This document shows positions 7,973 through 38,139 of a stretch of 38,139 nucleotides of DNA, in pieces. Source of the stretch: Phycisphaerales bacterium Planc_01 (GTDB lineage Bacteria; Planctomycetota; Phycisphaerae; Sedimentisphaerales; Anaerobacaceae); assembly GCA_001603075.1 (NCBI GenBank), contig LVBB01000154.1, positions 1 to 38,139 on the forward strand, written 5' to 3'. The position numbers were made by a program, and so were the translations under genes. The notes under the pieces were generated by a model, which saw only the letters and a list, made by a program, of their open reading frames with translations, was not told the origin of the DNA and ran no database searches. How positions within the stretch are numbered: position 1 is the stretch's first letter; each line of letters begins with the position of its first letter.

Positions 7973-10933
7973 ATGTGTGGACGACTGTGTTTACTGGTGG
8001 CTCTCGCGGTGGCGATGAGCCTGGGGACCGCCTACGGCGCCGTGGACCCGGACATCATTGGCTGGTGGTGGTTTGATGAAGGCGGCGGAACCACTGCGGC
8101 CGATTCATCCGGAAACGGCAACAACGGAACCCTCATGGGCGGGGCCTCATGGGCGCCGGGTTACTTCCGCACCGCCCTGCAACTCGACGGCGTAGATGGA
8201 TATGTCGAAGTGCCTCACAATCCGTCGCTCAATGTCGATGGCGAGGCAACGGTGATGGCCTGGATCAACACTCCCAGGCGGGAGACCCCAGGCCAAGGCT
8301 ATCAGGGCGTGATCGGCAAGGGCAATGGCACCGCCCGATCCTACAGCCTCTACACCACGCCCAACAACCTGCATTTCAGCACGGGCCCGTCGGGCGCCTA
8401 CATCGGCTCGTCCAGCAGTACCGGAGCCATCCCCATCAACGAGTGGGTGCACGTTTGCGGAATGATCATCAGCAATGGGCACCAGTACTACGTCAACGGT
8501 GAAGACGCCGGCAGATTCGCAAACGGGGCCGTAGGTCCGGGCGCGGCCGACACGGAGAATCTGGTCATCGGCCGAACGCAGGAAGGCACCGGCCGCAGTT
8601 TCGAAGGCTTGATCGACGATGTCCGCATCTATCGGCGCGGCCTGACGCAAGAGGAAGTGCAACGGATCATGACGGGCAGCGACTTGACCAGCACCACCGC
8701 GGGCAACCCCGTCCCCGGCGACGCCCAGCAGGATGTGCGCCGCGACGTGGTTCTCTCCTGGACGCCGGGCGAATATGCCGCGACACATGATGTCTACTTC
8801 GGCACCGTCGCCAACGACGTCAACAACGCCAGTCGGACCAATCCGATGGGTGTTCTTGTCAGCCAGGGCCAGGCCGCGTCCAGCTACGACCCGGCCGGAC
8901 TGCTCGACATCGCCCAGACCTACTACTGGCGTATCGATGAAGTCAATGCTCCGCCGAGCAACACGATCTTCAAAGGAAGCCTCTGGAGCTTTACGACCGA
9001 ACCTCTGGCCTACCCGATCGCCGGCATCACCGCCACGTCCAACGGTGTGTTCGACGCGACCGCTGCACCGGAGAACACGGTCAACGGCTCCGGCCTCAGT
9101 GAAAACGACGAACATTCGCTGGCACCGGCGGCAATGTGGCTCACCAAGGCGCCGGAGGACGGCTCCGATCTCTACATCCAGTATGAGTTCGACAACGTCT
9201 ACAAGCTCCACGAGCTGCTCGTCTGGAATTACAACGTCCAGTTCGAGTTGCTGCTGGGCTTCGGGGTCAAGGACGTCACTGTGGAGTACTCCGTCGACGG
9301 CGCGGAATGGGCGACCCTGGGCGACTTTGAACTTGCCCAGGCCACGGCCAAAGCCACCTACGTCGCGAACACCACCGTCAACTTCGACGGCGTCGCGGCC
9401 AAATACGTCCGCCTCAACATCAACAGCGGCCATAGCACCATGGGCCAGTACGGCCTGAGCGAGGTCCGCTTCACCTACATTCCCGTCCAGGCGCGCGAAC
9501 CGCAGCCGAGCGATGGCGCCGCCAATGTGGACCCGGGCGCCGTTCTGGCCTGGCGGCCGGGCCGAGAGGCTGTCTCGCATGAGGTCTATGTCGGAACCGA
9601 CGCCGAAGACCTGGCGCTGGCCGGCACCGTGGCCCAACCAACCTTCACGCCCGCCAATCTCGTGTACGGCGGCACCTATTACTGGCAGATCGTCGAGGTC
9701 GGCGAAGACGAGGCCGCCAGCACATGGGCCGGGAACGTCTGGAGCTTCTCGACCAGCGCATACGCCGTTGTCGATGACATGGAGAGCTACACCGACGACA
9801 TCGATGCCGGTGAGGCCATTTTCGACACATGGGTCGACGGCTGGGTCAACAACACCGGATCGACGGTAGGCTACCTTCAGACGCCGTTCGCCGAGAGGAC
9901 CATCGTTCATAGCGGTCGGCAGGCCATGCCGCTGTTCTATGAGAACACTGGTGGCGTAACCATCGCCGAGGCCGTGCGCACATTTGCGACACCGCAGAAC
10001 TGGACCGCACGCGGTCTCAAGAGCCTCTCGCTGTATTTCCACGGCACCGCCGGCAACACCGGGCAGTTGTACGTCAAGATCAACAACACCAAGGTCGTCT
10101 ATGACAGCGATGCGGCGGACATCACCCGAGGTGTCTGGCAGGCATGGAACATCGATCTGACGACTGTCGGTGCGAATCTGAGCAGCGTCACGTCGCTGAC
10201 GATCGGCATCGACGGCGCCGGCGCCAGGGGCACGCTGTACATCGACGACATCCGACTGTATCCGAACGTGCCGGAGTTCGTCACGCCGGCCGAGCCGGGC
10301 ACTGGGAGTCTCGTCGCGCGGTATGCCTTCGACGGCAATGCCAATGACAGCTCCGGCCGAGGCCGCAACGGCACGGTGCAGGGCAGCCCGACTTATGTCG
10401 CCGGCAAGGACGGCCAGGCCATCGCACTCGACGGCGTCCGACAGTATGTGGTCGTCGAGACCGTCGGCATCACCGGTGCCGCCCCGCGGACCATTGCCGG
10501 ATGGGCCAAGGCCGACACGACCTCGATCACGGCCTGGGCCAACGTATTCGGCTTCACGGGGCCCAGCGGCAACGGCGGCCACTTCGACATCGAGGCCGTC
10601 GGCACCAGTGGCACTTCCGCCACGCTGGGCTACTACGGCCTGCACCGTTACGGCTGGGAGTTCAACATCCTCCCGATCGACCTGGAATGGCACCATCTGG
10701 CGGCCTCGTTTGACGGCACGACCGTGCGCTGGTATGGCGACGGCCTGCTGATCGGCAGCGACGACGTGGACAACGTCAACACGCCGGGCCCCTTCCATGT
10801 GGGCAAGCGCCAGGACAATGAGGTCTTCTTCCCCGGTGCCGTCGATGAAGTGCGCGTCTACAGCGAAGCGCTGGCCGACGGCGAGATTGCCTGGCTGGCT
10901 GGAAGAAGGGCCCCTATGCACAAACCCTTCTGA
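7973..10933 (+). CDS. Secreted LamG / F5-8C / LamG protein, copy 1
   Basis: A 986-aa exported protein whose domains I read in order: signal peptide (1 to about 22), LamG/concanavalin-like domain with WWWFDEGGGT (27 to about 230), an Fn3-like segment with VVLSWTPG and YYWRIDEVN (about 250-345), an F5/8C discoidin-like domain (about 350-505), a second Fn3-like segment (about 508-600), a galactose-binding-like domain from VVDDMESY to YIDDIRLY (about 600-760), and a C-terminal LamG domain (about 780-980). All are typical carbohydrate- or surface-binding folds; no catalytic domain is seen. AGGAGG just upstream fixes the start. It is paralogous to the genes at 25708 and 36703. No anchor or sorting signal is visible at the C-terminus. 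A role in binding extracellular polysaccharide is inferred. Confidence 0.88.
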   Translation: MCGRLCLLVALAVAMSLGTAYGAVDPDIIGWWWFDEGGGTTAADSSGNGNNGTLMGGASWAPGYFRTALQLDGVDGYVEVPHNPSLNVDGEATVMAWINTPRRETPGQGYQGVIGKGNGTARSYSLYTTPNNLHFSTGPSGAYIGSSSSTGAIPINEWVHVCGMIISNGHQYYVNGEDAGRFANGAVGPGAADTENLVIGRTQEGTGRSFEGLIDDVRIYRRGLTQEEVQRIMTGSDLTSTTAGNPVPGDAQQDVRRDVVLSWTPGEYAATHDVYFGTVANDVNNASRTNPMGVLVSQGQAASSYDPAGLLDIAQTYYWRIDEVNAPPSNTIFKGSLWSFTTEPLAYPIAGITATSNGVFDATAAPENTVNGSGLSENDEHSLAPAAMWLTKAPEDGSDLYIQYEFDNVYKLHELLVWNYNVQFELLLGFGVKDVTVEYSVDGAEWATLGDFELAQATAKATYVANTTVNFDGVAAKYVRLNINSGHSTMGQYGLSEVRFTYIPVQAREPQPSDGAANVDPGAVLAWRPGREAVSHEVYVGTDAEDLALAGTVAQPTFTPANLVYGGTYYWQIVEVGEDEAASTWAGNVWSFSTSAYAVVDDMESYTDDIDAGEAIFDTWVDGWVNNTGSTVGYLQTPFAERTIVHSGRQAMPLFYENTGGVTIAEAVRTFATPQNWTARGLKSLSLYFHGTAGNTGQLYVKINNTKVVYDSDAADITRGVWQAWNIDLTTVGANLSSVTSLTIGIDGAGARGTLYIDDIRLYPNVPEFVTPAEPGTGSLVARYAFDGNANDSSGRGRNGTVQGSPTYVAGKDGQAIALDGVRQYVVVETVGITGAAPRTIAGWAKADTTSITAWANVFGFTGPSGNGGHFDIEAVGTSGTSATLGYYGLHRYGWEFNILPIDLEWHHLAASFDGTTVRWYGDGLLIGSDDVDNVNTPGPFHVGKRQDNEVFFPGAVDEVRVYSEALADGEIAWLAGRRAPMHKPF

Positions 10934-23379: not shown

Positions 23380-24750
23380 ATGAAGCGCCGTGCGTTCCTG
23401 AAAGGCTGTGCTGTATCGTTGGCGGGCTTGGCCCGGCCCGACGTGTTGTCGCCGAGGGTCTGCGCCGCCCCGCCGGCCGGGATGCCGGATACCTCCGGTA
23501 TGAACGTGCTGCTGATCCTCGTCGAGGGCCTGACGGCCAACGCCATTGGCTGTTACGGCAATCCAGAGGTCCGAACCCCGAACCTCGACCGCTTCGCAAC
23601 GCGAGCAATGCGATTCACCCGATGCTACTGCCAGACACCGATGAGCGGCCCCTCGCGCAATTCGCTTCTCACGGGCCTGCGTCCCGACCCCGTCGGCGCC
23701 GTGTCCGATGGCCCCCCCGCAGGGGCACGGTCATTGCCGGAGATGCTTCGCCAGTACGGATTTCGTGACGTAGGAATCGGCCAACCGTCTACCGGCTCAC
23801 GACGGCGCGGCATATCCGACCGTACCGGGCGCTGTCACGACGTTCGCAGACGTCGCAGCGAGACAGACCAGAAACGCCGGGAGCAGTCCACGAGTCGAAG
23901 CGTCACGAGAGTCCTTGCCGAATCCGCCGAGGAAGGGTCCCCATTCTTCATGTCGGTGGATGCCTTGTCGCTTCGTATGCCGCTGCGATGCCCTGCGACC
24001 TTTCTCGACCTGTACGATCCGAGTCGCATCCCGCGTCCCCAGGCCCCTACCTGCCAGGACCGCGACATCCCTGCCGTCGCCAGGCGATTCGGCCGCGACG
24101 ACATCTCGCTCGGAAGCGATGACGACGGCCCCATGTCGGAGGAGGTCACTCGCACGACCGTTCTGGCATACTACGCTTGCGTTTCTTTCGTCGATGCGCA
24201 GATTGGAGCTGTGCTCGACGCGCTCGATCGATCGCCACAGTGCAGCGACACCATCGTCGGCATCCTCAGCTATCACGGGTTCCATCTGGGCGAACACGGG
24301 CTCTGGGGAGCGAGAACGCTCTTCGAGCAATCCACCCGTGTTCCCCTGCTGGTCCGCGTGCCGGGCGTTACCACGCGCCAAACCGTATGCGACGAGATCG
24401 TTGAACTGGTGGACCTGCTGCCGACTGTTTGTGACCTTCTGGCCGTCCCGGTGCCGGACGGAACCGAGGGCAGAAGCTTCGGCCCGCTGTTACACGACCC
24501 GCTGCAACCCTGGAAGCGAGCGGCGTTCACGGTCTGCGCTGTGGACGATCATATCGGACGGTCTGTGCGAACCAAACGCTGGCGCTATGCCGACTGGCAA
24601 TCCCGCACGACCTCGTTGCGCCAGTTCGAGCTCTATGACCTTGACACCGATCCGTGGGAACAGATCAACCTCGCATTGCATCCCGACTATCGCAACGAGC
24701 GCACGATCCTGGCGAATCTCCTTCAGCGTGGCTGGAAGGCCGCCCAGTAG
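23380..24750 (+). CDS. Sulfatase-fold protein with degraded active site
   Basis: A 456-aa exported protein with a twin-arginine-type signal (RRAFLKG, cleavage near residue 30). The scaffold is that of iduronate-2-sulfatase-like enzymes: NVLLILVEG, TPNLDRFA, PSRNSLLTG, PFFMSVDAL, LYDPSRIP, YYACVSFVDAQIG, GFHLGEHGLWG, RVPLLVR. Key residues differ. The metal-binding Asp pair is E49-G50; the formylglycine position is Ser89 in S-G-P-S-R, which would be a valid Ser-type site if modified; the SDHG metal motif reads S-Y298-H-G; and the usual Lys after LWG is Ala. Residues about 135-180 are Arg/Ser-rich and not sulfatase-like. I conclude it is probably a pseudoenzyme or binding protein. GGAG 9 nt upstream supports the start. 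Confidence 0.8.
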   Translation: MKRRAFLKGCAVSLAGLARPDVLSPRVCAAPPAGMPDTSGMNVLLILVEGLTANAIGCYGNPEVRTPNLDRFATRAMRFTRCYCQTPMSGPSRNSLLTGLRPDPVGAVSDGPPAGARSLPEMLRQYGFRDVGIGQPSTGSRRRGISDRTGRCHDVRRRRSETDQKRREQSTSRSVTRVLAESAEEGSPFFMSVDALSLRMPLRCPATFLDLYDPSRIPRPQAPTCQDRDIPAVARRFGRDDISLGSDDDGPMSEEVTRTTVLAYYACVSFVDAQIGAVLDALDRSPQCSDTIVGILSYHGFHLGEHGLWGARTLFEQSTRVPLLVRVPGVTTRQTVCDEIVELVDLLPTVCDLLAVPVPDGTEGRSFGPLLHDPLQPWKRAAFTVCAVDDHIGRSVRTKRWRYADWQSRTTSLRQFELYDLDTDPWEQINLALHPDYRNERTILANLLQRGWKAAQ

Positions 24751-24907: not shown

Positions 24908-24988
24908 ATGACCTTGCCGCTTGCGTTGCGAACTCGTTTCCTGTATAATACAGGCGACACTTTTTGGGGTGGTGTAAGCTATGAATGA
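24908..24988 (+). CDS. Candidate 26-aa micro-ORF with perfect Shine-Dalgarno
   Basis: ATG 24908 is preceded by AGGAGGA (24894-24900) at 8-nt spacing, the strongest ribosome-binding site in this gap. It encodes 26 residues (begins MTLPLALRTRF, ends GGVSYE) and stops at TGA 24986-24988, overlapping the next micro-ORF by 8 nt. No known family. It could be a leader peptide. A -10 box lies inside it, so it needs a transcript from further upstream. Confidence 0.3.
   Translation: MTLPLALRTRFLYNTGDTFWGGVSYE
24921..24949 (+). promoter_or_regulatory. Predicted promoter with perfect TATAAT
   Basis: TTGCGT (24921-24926), 17 nt, TATAAT (24944-24949), with transcription expected near 24956. The -10 lies within the palindrome CCTGTATAATACAGG (24940-24954). 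Confidence 0.5.
24940..24954. promoter_or_regulatory. Palindrome CCTGTATAATACAGG over the -10
   Basis: A perfect 7+1+7 palindrome containing the TATAAT box. As RNA it could also form a 5-bp hairpin (CCTGT/ACAGG) upstream of TTTTT (24961-24965), a weak terminator-like alternative. Operator or terminator function is not established. Confidence 0.4.
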
Positions 24989-25046
24989 AATAGTCCTGAC
25001 GGTTTTCGTGATGCTTCTGTTCCTTTCAGGCGTCACAACCCAATAG
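24981..25046 (+). CDS. Candidate 21-aa hydrophobic micro-ORF
   Basis: ATG 24981 to TAG 25044-25046 encodes 21 residues, MNEIVLTVFVMLLFLSGVTT plus Q: one short membrane-spanning helix with an acidic N-terminus. It starts 25 nt after the predicted start site of the 24921 promoter and overlaps the preceding micro-ORF (ATGAATGA). Upstream GGGGTGG is only a partial Shine-Dalgarno. It could be a small membrane peptide. No homologue can be named. Confidence 0.35.
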   Translation: MNEIVLTVFVMLLFLSGVTTQ

Positions 25047-25298: not shown

Positions 25299-25707
25299 GA
25301 AATGCGGTTTCTAACGTTAGCATGCCGGGTTAGACAGGCTTTGGCGTTCTCACAGGAGGACAGCCGCGTCGCGACCGGCACGGCGGAGAATCGGCCGATA
25401 TCCAGGCCACGACGAGATATGGCAGGCGCAACGCACAGTGAACAGCGAATCGGCACATCCCCGCCCGGAGTGCATCGCCAGCCTGCCAATCGATCACGCC
25501 CTTCAACATCCGCACCGCACAGGAAGGAGGAACATGCCCGGGTCTGATAGCGATCGCCCCCAGGCAAGCACGAAAAGCGTCGCCGACTGAAACGTCCTCA
25601 AGACCCCCGGTATATGCGGTGATCGAGGCCGGGGCGGCATCGGCACAAGAGCACTACATTGGCGCACGATGGGGCGCTGGAGCAGTAATTTCTACTGGAG
25701 GATTGTC

Positions 25708-28638
25708 ATGGTTAGGAAAGTGTTTTGTCTCGTCTTTTTAACCCTTTCGATTGGACTGACGACGGCTGGGCCGGCGGCAGCCGATCTCCTCGCCTGGTGG
25801 ACGTTCAACGAAGGCGCCGGCACGACCGCCGCCGACGTCTCCGGCAACGGGCACGACGGCACTCTCAACGGTGACGCGACCTGGGCGGCCGGCTATCTCG
25901 GCGGCGCGCTGCAACTCGACGGCTCCGGCGACTACGTGATGTGTGGCCTGCTGGACATCGACACCGCCGTAACAGGCGGCATGACGGTCACCGTGTGGAT
26001 CAACAAGCCCGCCGGGGGAGACTACAAGATGTGCAGTAACCGCCAGGCCGACAACGCTGCCGGCGGAGGCTTCACGTGCTCGATCTACAATGACCGCATG
26101 GAGATGGACATTTGCAGCGCTACGGCGCGAAACCTCAACCGGGACAGCGACGGCCCCACCATCCCTGGTGACACGTGGACCCATCTGGCATGGGTCCTCG
26201 ACGACGCCGGTGACATGTTCCACGAGTATCACAACGGCGTGCTGGTCGATTCCTCGTCGGAAGCCGTCTCCGTCGGCCTTTCGACGCAGAACTTCCGCAT
26301 CGGCGCGGATTCTCCGAGTCTCGGACACTACTTCAGCGGCCTGATCGACGACCTGCGCGTGTACGATCATGTCCTGACCGAGGCGGAGTTGGCCGGCGTC
26401 ATGGCGGGCAAGGCCCCCGGCTTCGAGACGGCTGCCGACCCGAGGCCGGCAAGCGGCGCCACCGACGTGCCGCGTGACACGGTCCTGAGCTGGACCGCCG
26501 GCGAATTCGCCGCGACGCACGACGTCTACCTCGGCACGACGTTCGAGGACATCGACGCCGCCGATCGCGTCAACCCCATGGCGGCGCTCGTCAGCCAAGG
26601 CCAGGGCAACACCACATATGTCCCCGCCGAGGTCCTGCAATTCGGTCAGACCTACTACTGGCGCGTCGATGAGGTCAATGCGGCCCCGGACAACACGATC
26701 TTCAAGGGCGAGGTCTGGAGCTTCACTACCGAACCTCTGGCCTACACGATCCAGGGCGTCGTGGCAACAAGCAATGCGACATCGGGCGCTGGCGCCGGGC
26801 CGGAGAACACGGTCAACGGCTCCGGTCTCAACGCCGCCGACGAGCATTCCCTCGCTTCGGAGGACATGTGGCTGGCCGCGTGGGACCAGAGCGAGCCTTT
26901 GTGGATTCAGTTCGAATTCGACGCGGTTCACAAGCTGCACCAGATGTTCGTGTGGAACTACAACAGCCAGTTTGAGATGGTGCTCGGTTTCGGGCTCAAG
27001 GATGTCACCGTGGAATACTCGACCGACGCAACCGAGTGGACCGTATTCGACGACGTCCGGCTCACCCGCGCCACGGCGACGGCGACCTATGCCTCCAACA
27101 CCACGATCGACTTCGCCGGCGTCGCCGCCAGATACGTCCGCTTGGTCGTCAACAGCGGCTGGGGGACGATGGGCCAGTACGGCCTCAGCGAGGTCCGATT
27201 CACCTATCTCCCTGTTCTGGCGCGCGAGCCGGAGCCGGCGGACGGTGCGGTCGATGTGTCGGTCGAGACCCTTCTCGATTGGCGCGCAGGCCGCGAGGCC
27301 GCTTCGCATGAAGTCCTGCTGGGAACCGCCCCGGAGACGCTCGCCGTGGTCGAGGTGGTCGCTCCGTCACAATACAACCCCGGCACGCTGGATCTCGGGA
27401 CAACCTACTACTGGCGAATCGACGAGGTCAATGACAATGCCGCCCCGAGCCTCTGGACCGGCACCCCGTGGAGTTTCTCAACACAGGACTGTCTCGTCGT
27501 GGACGACTTCGAGAGCTACACCAACGACATCGATGGCGGCAAGACCATCTTCCAGGCCTGGCTCGACGGCTACGAGGATTCCACAAACGGCTCCCAGGTC
27601 GGTTACCTCAATGCCCCGTTTGCCGAACAGGCCATCGTTCACGGCGGCAAACAGTCCATGCCCCTGTACTTCGACAACACCTCGGCCTCGACGTCCGTGG
27701 CCGATCTCGATCTTGGCGGTCAGGACTGGACCCGGGCCGGCATCCGGGCGCTCGTGCTGTACTTCCGTGGCAGCACGAGCAATACAGGCGGTCGGCTCTA
27801 TGTGAAGATCAACGGCACCAAGGTCGTCTACGACGGGGATGCCGACGCACTGACCAGGCCCATGTGGAAGCAATGGAACATCGATCTGGCCTCGGCCGGC
27901 ACCAACCTGTACAATGTCACGAGCCTCAGCGTCGGTGTGGACGGGGGCGGTTCCGGCCTGGTCTACGTCGATGACATCCTGCTGTACCGGACGGCCCCGG
28001 AGATTCTCGCTCCGGTCGATCCGGGGACGGACGGGCTGACGCTTCAGTACCTCTTCGACAACGGCGCCGCCGACAGCTCGGGCAACGGCTATCATGGCAC
28101 GCTGCTGGGCCATGCCGTTGCCGCGGACGGGGTCCTGAACCTGGATGGCATCGATGACGCCGTGGCCGTGCCGAGGATCGGCGGCGCCAGCGCGACGTTC
28201 AGCGCGTTCAGCTATGCGATGTGGGTCCACCCGGCGTCGTCTCTGGCCGACGTGCAGTTCGCCGGCGGGATGAACACCGATGTCTGGGCGGCCGGCGCGG
28301 TGCACTTCAAGCTCTCCTACGGCCTGGTCAACGTCGGAATCAACGGACTCGACGGCGGCGACCTCGCCGGCGTGACGATGGTCAACGCCGGGGAGTGGAG
28401 CCACATGGCCCTGACCGTCTCTCCGACACGAGCGGCCATCTATCTGAACGGTCAGATCGAGGATTCGCGCGATCTGTCGGCCCCCATGACGAACCTCATC
28501 CTGGGCGGCGCCTCTCTGGGCGCATGGAACAACAGCGGCACTCTCGAACGGGAGATGGCCGGCCAGATGGACGATGTCCGCATCTACGACCGCGCCTTGT
28601 CGGAGGCGGAGATCCTGTTCCTGGCCGAGCACCGGTAG
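25708..28638 (+). CDS. Secreted LamG / F5-8C / LamG protein, copy 2
   Basis: This 976-aa exported protein has the same domain order as copy 1: signal (1 to about 26, AAA), LamG with WWTFNEGAGT (about 27-232), Fn3-like with VLSWTAGEF and YYWRVDEVN (about 245-345), discoidin-like with LLLGFG/VLGFGLKDVTVEYS equivalents (about 350-505), Fn3-like (505-595), galactose-binding-like from VVDDFESY to YVDDILLY (about 597-760), and C-terminal LamG with LDGIDDAVAVP (about 770-970). ATG 25708 is preferred over 25669 because GGAGG lies 7 nt upstream and the signal peptide begins there. Like copy 1 it has no catalytic domain. It is followed by a 15-bp terminator hairpin. A polysaccharide- or surface-binding role is inferred. 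Confidence 0.87.
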   Translation: MVRKVFCLVFLTLSIGLTTAGPAAADLLAWWTFNEGAGTTAADVSGNGHDGTLNGDATWAAGYLGGALQLDGSGDYVMCGLLDIDTAVTGGMTVTVWINKPAGGDYKMCSNRQADNAAGGGFTCSIYNDRMEMDICSATARNLNRDSDGPTIPGDTWTHLAWVLDDAGDMFHEYHNGVLVDSSSEAVSVGLSTQNFRIGADSPSLGHYFSGLIDDLRVYDHVLTEAELAGVMAGKAPGFETAADPRPASGATDVPRDTVLSWTAGEFAATHDVYLGTTFEDIDAADRVNPMAALVSQGQGNTTYVPAEVLQFGQTYYWRVDEVNAAPDNTIFKGEVWSFTTEPLAYTIQGVVATSNATSGAGAGPENTVNGSGLNAADEHSLASEDMWLAAWDQSEPLWIQFEFDAVHKLHQMFVWNYNSQFEMVLGFGLKDVTVEYSTDATEWTVFDDVRLTRATATATYASNTTIDFAGVAARYVRLVVNSGWGTMGQYGLSEVRFTYLPVLAREPEPADGAVDVSVETLLDWRAGREAASHEVLLGTAPETLAVVEVVAPSQYNPGTLDLGTTYYWRIDEVNDNAAPSLWTGTPWSFSTQDCLVVDDFESYTNDIDGGKTIFQAWLDGYEDSTNGSQVGYLNAPFAEQAIVHGGKQSMPLYFDNTSASTSVADLDLGGQDWTRAGIRALVLYFRGSTSNTGGRLYVKINGTKVVYDGDADALTRPMWKQWNIDLASAGTNLYNVTSLSVGVDGGGSGLVYVDDILLYRTAPEILAPVDPGTDGLTLQYLFDNGAADSSGNGYHGTLLGHAVAADGVLNLDGIDDAVAVPRIGGASATFSAFSYAMWVHPASSLADVQFAGGMNTDVWAAGAVHFKLSYGLVNVGINGLDGGDLAGVTMVNAGEWSHMALTVSPTRAAIYLNGQIEDSRDLSAPMTNLILGGASLGAWNNSGTLEREMAGQMDDVRIYDRALSEAEILFLAEHR

Positions 28639-31149: not shown

Positions 31150-31551
31150 TCAGAAGCCCTTGTAGTGCCCCAGAAATGCCGCAAGCCCTTCGCGGCCGAA
31201 CCACTGAGGGTCCCACGCCGCGTGGTCGGTCATGTGGAGGTACTCGTCCCTGAGGACATAGGCGTCGGCGGTGATTCTCTCGCGTCCGGCGATGACGGTT
31301 TGACTCTGGCGGTCGTAGAATTCGCCCTCGAAGAAGTCCAGCCGCTTGAGGTCTTCTGCACCGATGTCCAGGTAGACCAGGCCATCGACCCATTCGGCGT
31401 CGTGGGTCCGGAAGATGACGGGATAGACATCGTCGCGCACCTTGCGACGGGTGAAGCCGTGCAGGCGGGCCGGGCGACTGGCATAGGCGCCCCGCACCAG
31501 CCGTGTCCAAACCGATTCAAACATCAGCGAACCGTAGGTAAACAGATGCAT
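31150..31551 (-). CDS. Gamma-glutamylcyclotransferase-like (AIG2) protein
   Basis: A 133-aa cytoplasmic protein. It begins MHLFTYGSLM, the YGSLM signature of the gamma-glutamylcyclotransferase/AIG2 fold, and carries LDFFEGEFYDR (about 72-82), where the family has its catalytic Glu. The family releases 5-oxoproline from gamma-glutamyl amines or peptides; the substrate here is unknown. The length is normal for compact members. A start at 31551 is favoured by the conserved N-terminus; the long open frame to 31962 is not protein-like. No operon evidence: a 211-nt gap precedes it on the minus strand and 177 nt (30973-31149) separate it from the next gene. I see no gene in either gap. Confidence 0.8.
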   Translation of the reverse strand: MHLFTYGSLMFESVWTRLVRGAYASRPARLHGFTRRKVRDDVYPVIFRTHDAEWVDGLVYLDIGAEDLKRLDFFEGEFYDRQSQTVIAGRERITADAYVLRDEYLHMTDHAAWDPQWFGREGLAAFLGHYKGF

Positions 31552-31700
31552 GCCCTGCGTTCCCGGCAAGAAACGACGTTCTCGTAAGACCCATGCAGGA
31601 ATCCGTTGCAAACGCCGTGCCACCCGCAGGCTCGTCGTCGGCCCCGAGACTGGCAGCGACCTCGCGGAAAGCGACAGAACTGTGGACGGACGCACCCCGG

Positions 31701-31718
31701 ACCGACGAAATTGTCGGT
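31701..31718 (-). terminator. Short hairpin after the DUF5107-TPR gene
   Basis: ACCGAC (31701-31706) and GTCGGT (31713-31718) form a perfect 6-bp stem around GAAATT, about 45 nt past the stop at 31763. There is no U-run. Confidence 0.3.
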
Positions 31719-31762
31719 TCTGCTTCTGCGGACCCCGCCGCATTACACCGACAATCGAGCTT

Positions 31763-34700
31763 CTAAGGCAGCATCGCCAATTGAGCCCTCGCCCAGACAT
31801 GACTGACGTTGAGCTTCGCCGCCTGGTCGAACGCACTGCGGGCGGCCTCGGTCCGGCCGGACCCGAGGTAGCCCAGTCCCTGGATGTAATGGGCCGAGGC
31901 GAGCCGCGCCTGGCGGGCCTGCTGCTCGCCGAACTTGGCGAAGAAATCCACTTCCTCATCACGTTCGATCCGCTCGGTGCCCGTTCGGATCAACTCCTCG
32001 AAGATCTCCGTGGCCTGCTCCTCGCGCCCCAGCTTACGCATCGACATCGCCCGGTAGAAACGCGACTCGGGCGCCCAGCGCGCGCCCGCCTCGGCCGCCG
32101 ATTTCTCGTAGAGGGCCCTGGCCTTCTCCGCGTCGCCGAGAGCCTCGTGAGCCTGCGCCGCATAGTAGGCCATCTGCGCCGCCCGCGGATCGTTCTGCGG
32201 CCGACCGACGGAGAGGTTCTCCGGGTATTCGGCCGCCGCGAGGAAGTCCTCCAGGGCCTTGGCCGGGTCATCGTTCCTGAGCCGTTCCAGCCCGCGAAGC
32301 AGATGGGCATCGACGTAGACCTCGCGAATCTCTCCGCCGCCTTCCCGAACGTGGAAATGGTGATTCGCCAGATTCGCAATAGCCGGGTCGTAATGGCCCG
32401 TCAGTACCATCGCCGCGATCAGACTCTGGAAGCTGTCGTTGCGTTTGATGACCGTCGCATGGTGTTTCTGGAGGATCTCCAGTCGTTTGGCGGGGTCCAC
32501 GTTGCCCAGTTCGTACAGATGGTCCAGTTCCGCGAACAAACGCGCATCATCGGTCCTGCATGCGATCGCCTTCTCGTAACAGGCGATGGCTCTGGGCACA
32601 TCATCGGCTATTCGATGGTAAGCCCACCCGAGGTTGCGATGGCTCCCGGCGAAACTCGGATCGAGCCGGGCCGCCCGTTCCCAACAGGCCACCGCCCGCT
32701 CCGGCTGCACGTCGTAAAGCGCGTTGCCAAGGTAGTAGGCCGCACGCGCATCGTCCGGGTTGCACTCGATCGCGGCGGCCAGCGCCGCGATCGATTCGTG
32801 ACGGAACGGGAAGCAGTAATCCGCCGGCATGGCCTGCGCCTGTGAGAACAGCTTGCGGGCCGCCTCGATATCGCCGTTGCGATGATGGATGTGGCCGAGA
32901 TAGTAATACACCAGCGGATAGCGGCCGGCCGCATCCGTCTTGTCGCGCGCCGCCCGCCCGAGCACCTCGACCGCCTCGTCCCAGAGGCCCCAGCCCATGT
33001 AGTCCGTCGCCAGTTCGAGGTAGGCCTGCACGTTGCGTTGCATCGTGCGTTCCAGCCGCTCCAGCGTATCGGCGGCGCGACGTCTCTGTCCGAGGGCCGT
33101 CTGGATCAGAACCAATTCGTTCCTCGCCACGAAATCGAGCGGGTCGCCTGCAAGCACAGCCTGGACGATCGCCCGGGCCTGTCGGAGATCCCCCTGACGC
33201 CGGAGCACCGCCGCCTTGAGGTTCCGCGCCTTCGTGTTCACGGCGTTGGTCGTCATCGATTTATCGATCTGCTCGATGGCCGTCGCCCAGTCGCCCTTGC
33301 CGCACGACAGCTCTGCAAGCTGATAGTAGCCTGCCGAGTGAAACGCGTAATCCCACGTGGACCGGTAGAAGGCCTCGTACGCCTCGTCGATCCTGCCCTG
33401 GGCGCGCAGCGCCACACCCAGATGGTACAACGCTTCGGTGCTGACGGGCCGTGTATAGTCGGCCGAAAGCCTCGTCACCGCCCGGCGCAGGTGCTCTTCG
33501 GCCCTGGCGTACAGGCCCCGCCGGTTGTAGTTGATGCCCACGATCGTGTTCGTCCGCGTGTCGTCCGGGTCGCGCCGCAGGGCCTCGTTGTAGTAATCGA
33601 ACGGATCGACGCGGGGGTTGTGAATCTGCTCGATGCGAAAGCCGGTCAGATACAGCTCCTCGATGGTCTCGATGTCCTTCGGGGCCGGCGGGTTCTTCAC
33701 GACCGCCGGCAGATTCGGATCGTACGGGCGCTCGACGGGCCGATAGGCAATCAGCTCCCGGCCCGAGGCCGAGAGCAGAGAAGCCCGCAGATCGGTGACA
33801 TCGACGCCCTCCGGCGCCGCCACTTCCGCTACGAACGGCTCGGCCGGACCGATGGCGATCGTCGCGTCCAGAATGGTCTGCCCCGAGGCGGTCAGCATCG
33901 CTCTGGCCTTCTTGTGCGGAGCGGTTGTGTTGAACCCCAGCCTGACCTTGCCGTCGTCGGTCCGTTCGAGGTTGACAGCCGCATCGAGATTGGCGTTCTT
34001 GAACCCGCCGATCGCGCGAATGGGATACCAACACTGCTGGAACGTCTTGACCTCGTACGGTTTGATCCAACTGTAGTCCGGCTGGTTGTCGCTGAACGCG
34101 CCGACCATCAACTCAGCGTACGGCCCATCCTCATCGGTCAGGATCTTGTCCCACATCCGTCCCCGAGGTCCGGGCCCCCACTCCCACAGTTTGGCCCCGC
34201 ACACGACGTGATGGTTGCCGACGTGAACCACACCCGCCTGGCGGCCGTGATCGTAGCCGCCCATGAAGTCCTCCTGGAGGTCCCAGGCGAAAAACGAGAC
34301 AGGCTCCGGATGGTTCTTCCACCAACTCAGGTCCACACCTCGGTAGTCCGTGCCACGATAGGTCTCGGCGCCGATCGGCCAGCGGGCGAAATCGTTCTTG
34401 GAGTGGTAGGTCGCCGCGGTGACGCTGGGCGGAAAGATCACCTGGTAGGTGTCGTCCACGTGGACCGCGACATTGGCCCAGTACAGGATCGAGTGCGGCT
34501 GGGCCGTCCGGTTGAACAGCTTGACCGTCGTATCGATGTACGACCGGCCCGGATGGAGCGTCACGCCGATCAGCCACTTCATCCGATGCCGCCGCTCCGT
34601 CTCACCGAACCAGATCGTCTTGCTGCCGTCGGCGTTCTCGGCCAGCGTGTAATCGACGGGCATGTGCGTCGTGTCGCGATGGTGGTGGAAGACGCACCAT

Positions 34701-36702: not shown

Positions 36703-38139
36703 ATGTGTAGAAAGTTAGTGTTATTGGCAACCCTGTTTGCTCTGTTGAGCCCGGCCGGAGCGGTCCTGGCGGGGTTCGACCCGGCCCTCGTGGCCTGGTG
36801 GTCCTTCGATGAGGGCCAGGGCACCGTCGCGGCCGACGGCTCCGGAAACGGCAACGACGGCACCGTCGGCGGTGGCGCGCAATGGGTCGCCGGAAGGTTG
36901 GCCGGCGCGATGCAATTCAATGGCTCCGATGCCGAAATCACGGCGCCTCACATCGAGTTCGACAATCGGAGTTTCACCATCGCAATGTGGATCAATCCGG
37001 TGTTGAGCGGTTCGGCCATCATCTTCTCCCAGAGGGGCTCGGACTCGACGAACCTGAACATGCACATGCGGCTCGGTGGACCCAGCAGCGACGATGCCCC
37101 CGTTCGCGCCGTCCGCTTCGGATTCTACAGCAATGATCTCGATTCACCCGCCGGCGTTTTCCAGGACAACACATGGTACCACGTGACTTTCTGGTATGAC
37201 TACGAGAACCGGGACCGCCGAATCTACGTCGACGGCGAGCAGGTGGCTCAAGATGCAGGCACGCCGTATCTTGGGACATCGGGCAACACCATCATCGGCT
37301 CGTGGGATACGAGTCAGTTCTTCAACGGCATTATTGACGACGTGCAGGTTTACCACAAGGCCTTGTCAGATGGCGAGATCCGGAAGATCATGGCCGGTCT
37401 GGCCGATCAGTCGCTGGCGCAGAGCCCCAGCCCCGACAATGGAGCCATCGACGTTCAGCGTGACGTGGTGTTGAGCTGGACGGCGGGCGAGTTCGCGGCG
37501 ACACACGATGTGTACTTCGGCACCTCGTTCGATGACGTCAATGCAGCCAGCCGGACCAATCCACTGGATGTGCTCCTCAGCCAGGGCCAGGCCGGGACCA
37601 CCTACGATCCCGCCGGGCTGCTCGACTTTGGGACAACGTACTACTGGCGCGTCGATGAAGTCAACGCCGCGCCCGACAATACGATCTTCAAGGGCGAAAT
37701 CTGGAGCTTCACCAGCGAGCCGTTCGCGTATCCGGTTGCGAACATCATCGCCACGAGCAACGGTGATTTCGATGCGGCTGCTGGGCCGGAGAAGACGATC
37801 GATGGTTCGGGCCTCAATGCCGCCGATCAGCATTCCGTCGAGGCGGCAGACATGTGGCTGGCCTATGCCCCGGACGAAGGGCCGTTCTACCTCCAATACG
37901 AGTTCGACCGGGTCTACAAGCTGCACGAGATGCTGGTGTGGAACTACAACGTCCAGTTCGAGCTGCTGTTGGGCTTCGGGCTCAAGGACGTGACCGTCGA
38001 GTATTCGGTGGATGGTGAAGAGTGGACCGCGCTGGGCGACTTCACGTTCGCTCGGGCGACGGCCAAGGCGACATACGAAGCCAACACGACCGTGCCGTTC
38101 GATGGGGTTCCGGTGAAGTTCGTGCGACTGACCATCAAC
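36703..38139 (+). CDS. Secreted LamG / F5-8C protein, copy 3 (cut by window end)
   Basis: An open frame with no stop to the last base (479 codons), so the protein is incomplete at its C-terminus. It has a signal peptide (about 1-23), LamG with WWSFDEGQGT (about 25-230), an Fn3-like segment with VVLSWTAGEFAATHDVYFGT and YYWRVDEVNAAPDN (about 238-345), and the start of the discoidin-like domain with MLVWNYNVQFELLLGFGLKD (about 348 onward). The matching parts are very close to copies 1 and 2 (for example the LLGFGLKDVTVEYS string). AGGAGG just upstream fixes the start. Full length is expected to be about 980 aa by comparison. It lies 500 nt downstream of the membrane-tailed sigma factor. Confidence 0.88.
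   Translation, partial: MCRKLVLLATLFALLSPAGAVLAGFDPALVAWWSFDEGQGTVAADGSGNGNDGTVGGGAQWVAGRLAGAMQFNGSDAEITAPHIEFDNRSFTIAMWINPVLSGSAIIFSQRGSDSTNLNMHMRLGGPSSDDAPVRAVRFGFYSNDLDSPAGVFQDNTWYHVTFWYDYENRDRRIYVDGEQVAQDAGTPYLGTSGNTIIGSWDTSQFFNGIIDDVQVYHKALSDGEIRKIMAGLADQSLAQSPSPDNGAIDVQRDVVLSWTAGEFAATHDVYFGTSFDDVNAASRTNPLDVLLSQGQAGTTYDPAGLLDFGTTYYWRVDEVNAAPDNTIFKGEIWSFTSEPFAYPVANIIATSNGDFDAAAGPEKTIDGSGLNAADQHSVEAADMWLAYAPDEGPFYLQYEFDRVYKLHEMLVWNYNVQFELLLGFGLKDVTVEYSVDGEEWTALGDFTFARATAKATYEANTTVPFDGVPVKFVRLTIN

Follow-up and report, generated by a model that had tools for sequence, protein, structure and literature searches.

In the stretch of DNA analyzed here, 38,139 nucleotides from Phycisphaerales bacterium Planc_01 that span the full length of one contig in a 5.65 Mb assembly (hereinafter the window), we identified a gene whose product is probably a catalytically dead pseudo-sulfatase. 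The function left to it would reside in its C-terminal subdomain and most likely consist in binding protein. An orthologue was found in all six genomes of the genus examined, and we tentatively propose, with rather less confidence, that this genus-wide lineage abandoned its active site and that the C-terminal subdomain, with its newly fixed helix RTILANLLQRGW, became a dedicated periplasmic protein-binding interface. As the nucleophile, the metal ligands, and the sulfate-holding residues are lost, sulfatase activity of the window protein appears, judged from its sequence, very unlikely. The loss of catalytic residues on a scaffold under purifying selection across species marks it as a probable pseudoenzyme, pseudoenzymes being a known kind of protein.

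The frame and coordinates proposed for this gene in the earlier note are borne out (Table 1). Its product matches the Pfam Sulfatase family (PF00884) with 119.2 bits against a cut-off of 25 and SGSH_C with 70.5 bits, and belongs to the S1 formylglycine (FGly) sulfatase fold (PF00884) by both sequence and Foldseek/VIA matches to solved sulfatases. The N-terminus bears KRRAFLK, which we take to be a Tat motif, and the product is predicted to be an exported S1 sulfatase homologue, nearest in PDB to the S1_7 sulfatases (6HHM and human iduronate-2-sulfatase, I2S). The sequence search of solved structures recovered 6HHM as the best match (E 4.3e-44), with I2S (5.6e-35) ranking after 4UPI. A structural model built from six sequences (pLDDT 64.6, a middling confidence; pTM 0.73) also matched 6HHM best (Foldseek E 1.1e-26; Z 35.3, rmsd 3.4, 384 aligned), and 6HR5, an S1_25 module, ties with it within 1 Z unit; S1_7 members are among the nearest solved structures, yet S1_25 is their equal on fold. 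Of four scans of viral contigs made to enlarge the alignment for modeling, two recovered nothing, one recovered three loci, and one recovered two loci from contigs already represented among those three. Since the model falls below pLDDT 50 at residues 301–314 and 136–160, it offers no reliable view of the metal site. As modeled, the protein shares a four-stranded C-terminal sheet and a final helix with the S1_7 FGly sulfatases, namely the ulvan sulfatase FA22070 (6HHM) and I2S (5FQL), but differs from both in lacking the FGly cysteine and in the change of seven of the ten I2S active-site residues.

Table 1. Positions of the pseudo-sulfatase gene, its parts, and neighboring features in the window
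Feature	Position	Strand	Remarks
Pseudo-sulfatase CDS	23380..24750	+	456 aa plus stop; ATG at 23380; start codon and MKRR N-terminus common to 6/6 orthologues
Putative export signal, twin-arginine type (KRRAFLK)	23380..23490	+	Residues 1-37; RRxFL in 6/6 orthologues; Tat assignment by motif
E49-G50, first metal Asp pair site	23524..23529	+	Intact relatives also have E at 49; at 50, G stands where 36/36 intact rows have Asp
S89-G-P-S-R93, formylglycine motif CxPSR site	23644..23658	+	Column 89 across the orthologues: S,S,G,P,G,G
Residues 111-185, relaxed segment	23710..23934	+	Holds the lost K135 and H138 (Q135, T138); omega 0.56 vs 0.055 in the intact sister pair
R199 replacing catalytic His (I2S H229)	23974..23976	+	
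Y298-H299 replacing metal ligands D334-H335	24271..24276	+	Asp lost in 6/6 orthologues (Y,N,N,E,A,R)
A311 replacing catalytic Lys (I2S K347)	24310..24312	+	Lost in 6/6 (A,A,A,P,N,E)
C-terminal subdomain, residues 334-456	24379..24747	+	Modeled as an SD2-like sheet of four strands with a helix; holds 70 of 131 invariant positions
C-terminal helix, residues 436-456	24685..24747	+	7 of 13 invariant residues absent from both sister enzymes
21-residue hydrophobic ORF, MNEIVLTVFVMLLFLSGVTTQ	24981-25046	+	TATAAT box and near-invariant leader GGGGTGGTG[TC]AAGCTATGAA upstream
Long ORF, first of three related	7973-10933	+	Laminin-G-like and F5/8 type C domain matches
Long ORF, second of three related	25669-28638	+	Laminin-G-like and F5/8 type C domain matches
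Long ORF, third of three related	36703-38139	+	
Overlapping ORF	31150-31962	-	Opposite to the next
Overlapping ORF	31550-32845	+	Opposite to the preceding

The ten active-site residues of I2S (D45, D46, C84, R88, K135, H138, H229, D334, H335, and K347; PMC5472762) correspond in the window protein to E49, G50, S89, R93, Q135, T138, R199, Y298, H299, and A311, and only E49, R93, and H299 are retained, so that the set of metal ligands and catalytic Lys/His of an active S1 FGly sulfatase is reduced to 3/10. The earlier note had held that most of the catalytic residues are changed, that SDHG has become SYHG, and that the Lys after LWG is Ala; all of this stands (7/10 altered; S-Y298-H299-G; A311), and to it we add the changes at the equivalents of K135, H138, and H229. 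Its reading of the metal Asp pair as E-G is right for the lost D50 but not for E49, which is no change, as the pair is Glu-Asp in the nearest intact relatives (G032 and G075) and in several other intact relatives. Its suggestion that Ser89 is an FGly precursor does not hold: the S-G-P-S-R of the window copy formally fits [CS]-x-P-x-R, but the orthologue family does not keep the motif, with Gly and Pro also found in column 89 and the nearest orthologue reading S-D-L-S-R, which breaks CxPxR. The maturation machinery is not the missing part, since the anaerobic maturase (TIGR03942) is above cut-off in all six genomes of the genus and FGE-family proteins are likewise present in all six. All 18 other sulfatase genes examined in the window's genome (two further matched genes lie outside this comparison) have C-x-x-x-R at the FGly site, and losses of this class are seen again in five more assemblies from the genus; the changes are therefore neither chance nor one sequencing error, the latter being the refutation the note had foreseen.

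The four other full-length orthologues are 82, 72, 58, and 53–54 percent identical to the window protein, and the copy in G004 is shortened. None of the six retains the FGly Cys, the SDHG Asp, the His that follows GKxx, or the Lys that follows LWG; K135 and H199 are retained in G001 only and D50 in G003 only, R93 persists in five of the six and H299 in four. The catalytic score accordingly ranges from 1 to 5 of 10, with 1/10 in the shortened copy. Across nine catalytic columns the six orthologues retain 12 of 54 cells, against 437 of 522 in 87 other columns, the near-invariance of both sets being judged in 36 intact rows (nominal Fisher p 2.5e-20, the rows being related). Catalytic residues were read in these aligned rows, out of many more matches, so that further degenerate copies may exist elsewhere in the family; among the 36 one (L042) has Ser at the FGly site and another (L053) has Asn at both the H138 and H299 columns. 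The residues that stand at the lost sites vary between species, which means that these sites have not settled on a new chemistry. The segment comprising residues 111–185 is shortened in G005 and largely absent in G004.

In a tree of 32 rows, the six orthologues form one group (support 100/99), within which G004 is a long branch, and this group is sister to the intact G032 and G075 (joint group 95/91). These two sister-genus orthologues (L035 and L070, respectively) are the closest relatives outside the genus and, unlike the six pseudo-sulfatases, have all ten active-site residues; they score 9/10 in an eight-row alignment where the H138 column is shifted, the His being visible in a larger alignment. 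They further differ in an insertion after the GKLFH motif that is absent from the six. Most simply, the catalytic losses arose on the stem of the genus. The neighbors of the pseudo-sulfatase gene also stay the same within the genus, a shared gene order that agrees with the tree placement: LamG, Gfo/Idh, MipA, and GGACT genes lie to one side of it in G005, as do LamG, Gfo/Idh, and MipA genes with a GGACT fragment in G002; in G003 a group of Gfo/Idh, MipA, and GGACT borders it to one side and a DRL_cat oxidoreductase to the other, and in G004 the gene is flanked by MipA and DRL_cat. The intact gene of G075 adjoins homologues of two window neighbors, g31550 and g32882.

The reading frame is open in all six orthologues. 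Pairwise codon models (custom script, F3x4, kappa fixed at 3, the shortened G004 copy left out) gave a whole-gene omega of 0.067–0.198 over seven pseudo-sulfatase pairs, every one of which rejects omega = 1 (2dlnL 114–206); the upper value belongs to the closest pair, G000–G001, at dS 0.52. Saturation affects some of the pairs (dS exceeds 4 or reaches the bound), and weight is placed on G000–G001, G000–G005, and G001–G005. The dN/dS analysis of orthologues that the earlier note had called for thus reveals purifying selection, and its view that this is not simple decay is strongly upheld by the open frames and an omega far below 1. The constraint is unevenly spread: omega in the G000–G001 pair is 0.564 for residues 111–185 and 0.054 for residues 334–456, versus 0.055 and 0.161, respectively, in the intact G032–G075 pair, and residues 334–456 lie at 0.05–0.11 in the pseudo-sulfatase pairs. 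A likelihood-ratio test of the two segments yielded p 9.6e-16, 8.4e-12, and 5.9e-16 in three pseudo-sulfatase pairs and p 0.057, with the direction opposite, in the intact pair, which shows no rate gradient toward the C terminus, unlike the pseudo-sulfatase pairs. The dN ratio of the same segments is 3.4–16.4 in 10/10 pseudo-sulfatase pairs and 0.41–1.72 in 14/14 intact pairs, the latter being close pairs that we chose among the aligned rows rather than all possible pairs. Residues 111–185 have the highest dN of six segments in 7/7 pseudo-sulfatase pairs. For this segment omega = 1 could not be rejected for three of the seven pairs (2dlnL 1.6, 3.3, and 3.4) and is rejected in four (6.2–10.4); it is therefore relaxed, but not free of constraint. 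Constraint has been redistributed from the catalytic segment toward the C-terminal subdomain.

In the model, the ten-residue blocks from 341 on have pLDDT 67–91 and form a four-stranded sheet with a closing helix, the same arrangement as in subdomain SD2 of I2S, as far as the available text of its structural description goes (PMC5472762). More than half of the positions identical in the six orthologues fall here (Table 1), and the last helix has one and the same amino acid sequence in all six proteins, that of the shortened G004 copy among them, but is encoded by differing codons, so that the constraint acts on the protein. At fifteen positions the six share a residue that neither sister enzyme has; eleven of these lie in residues 334–456, seven of them in the last helix. 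Such newly fixed residues are enriched in the helix (7/13 vs 8/118, p 7e-5), and the C-terminal subdomain as a whole shows no clear excess of them (11/70 vs 4/61, p 0.17); the GW within the helix is in part an ancestral feature. Strong C-terminal constraint could come from folding alone.

Dead carbohydrate enzymes often turn into binders, and the persistence of R93 and H299 in most orthologues is consistent with a lectin-like protein whose former substrate cleft continues to bind sulfated glycans but does not cleave them. We regard this as improbable: sulfate-contacting K135 is lost in five of the six, K311 in all six, and H199 in five, and the relaxed, partly deleted segment 111–185 argues against glycan binding in the old cleft. 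The binding or regulatory role proposed in the earlier note is therefore upheld insofar as a non-catalytic role is the best reading, but not as binding via the old site, the conservation being C-terminal. A repurposed enzyme, with a different reaction at a site rebuilt elsewhere on the scaffold, is less probable still. The alkaline phosphatase superfamily is promiscuous, and the available text of PMC7576196 describes YejM/PbgA/LapC, once thought inactive, as an inner-membrane metalloenzyme with reported phosphatase activity, whose sulfatase-like periplasmic domain, in a likeness to the present case, is linked to a regulatory role; by the same text, however, its metal site is intact, whereas that of the window protein is lost, its metal and nucleophile columns varying by species. 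Nor do the 15 newly fixed positions cluster near the old site. The shortened G004 copy, with its single catalytic residue, might suggest a decaying pseudogene whose frame is still unbroken; we consider this highly unlikely given the open frames, the rejection of neutrality over the whole gene in every pair, and a C-terminal helix that is identical even in G004, and the closest pair is ungapped, which speaks against an alignment artefact behind the omega signal. Finally, it is hardly credible that the protein is an active sulfatase of the Ser type that relies on unusual metal ligands, for although S-G-P-S-R fits the motif and both maturase families are at hand, the protein has lost two metal Asp, both catalytic His, and two Lys, Ser89 varies among the orthologues, and the closest of these breaks the motif.

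The reading we prefer, a dead sulfatase that works through its C-terminal subdomain, would run as follows. An exported S1 I2S-like enzyme would have lost its FGly, metal, and sulfate-binding residues and then been retained for another job; strong constraint still rests on export, the scaffold core, and the C-terminal subdomain. As a periplasmic binding or scaffold protein it may, less certainly, contact another protein via the C-terminal sheet and last helix, and its role would lie in protein contact rather than in catalysis or the binding of glycans within the former cleft. A hetero-oligomer with a close active paralogue was also considered and is weakened: G001 and G002 keep the gene with no other match at E 1e-30, so that an active I2S-like paralogue of this closeness is not required, though the partner may be of some other kind.

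The neighborhood of the gene offered further observations. The 21-residue ORF (Table 1) is present in all six genomes of the genus and in one of another genus (G029); it lies about 130–245 bases past the sulfatase stop in five genomes and on another contig in G001. Over its seven copies, the variable sites by codon position number 8, 3, and 14, a coding pattern, and from its sequence it is probably an unannotated membrane microprotein. We rejected an operon link between it and the sulfatase gene, as it lies on a separate contig in G001 (which fits an inversion) and in G029 adjoins DUF6655 with no sulfatase between. The gene order in G001 (L121, G001:C12; L062, G001:C284) fits an inverted segment that reaches from the small ORF to MipA and has putative breakpoints adjoining the sulfatase and GGACT genes, or else an assembly fault. 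The three related long proteins of the window all match the same LamG homologues in related genomes. The two opposite ORFs have ~410 bases in common, and homologues of each occur in related genomes; their starts may be misplaced or the overlap may be real.

In the available text of the SulfAtlas paper, nine Lentisphaerae and Planctomycetes sequences are noted as perhaps inactive through loss of the motif Arg (PMC5066984), and that text contains no selection test; by contrast, five of the six proteins described here retain this Arg and most of their other catalytic residues are gone. Our searches of an open-access library turned up no work on a lineage of conserved pseudo-sulfatases. In planctomycetes, sulfatases belong to the most expanded families of enzymes, and their numbers are routinely read as a sign that sulfated polysaccharides are degraded. 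Such counts can mislead, as is shown by a dead lineage that is conserved and still annotated as sulfatase, and the intact sister enzymes together with six stages of catalytic-site erosion constitute a natural series for the question of how an enzyme becomes a binding protein.
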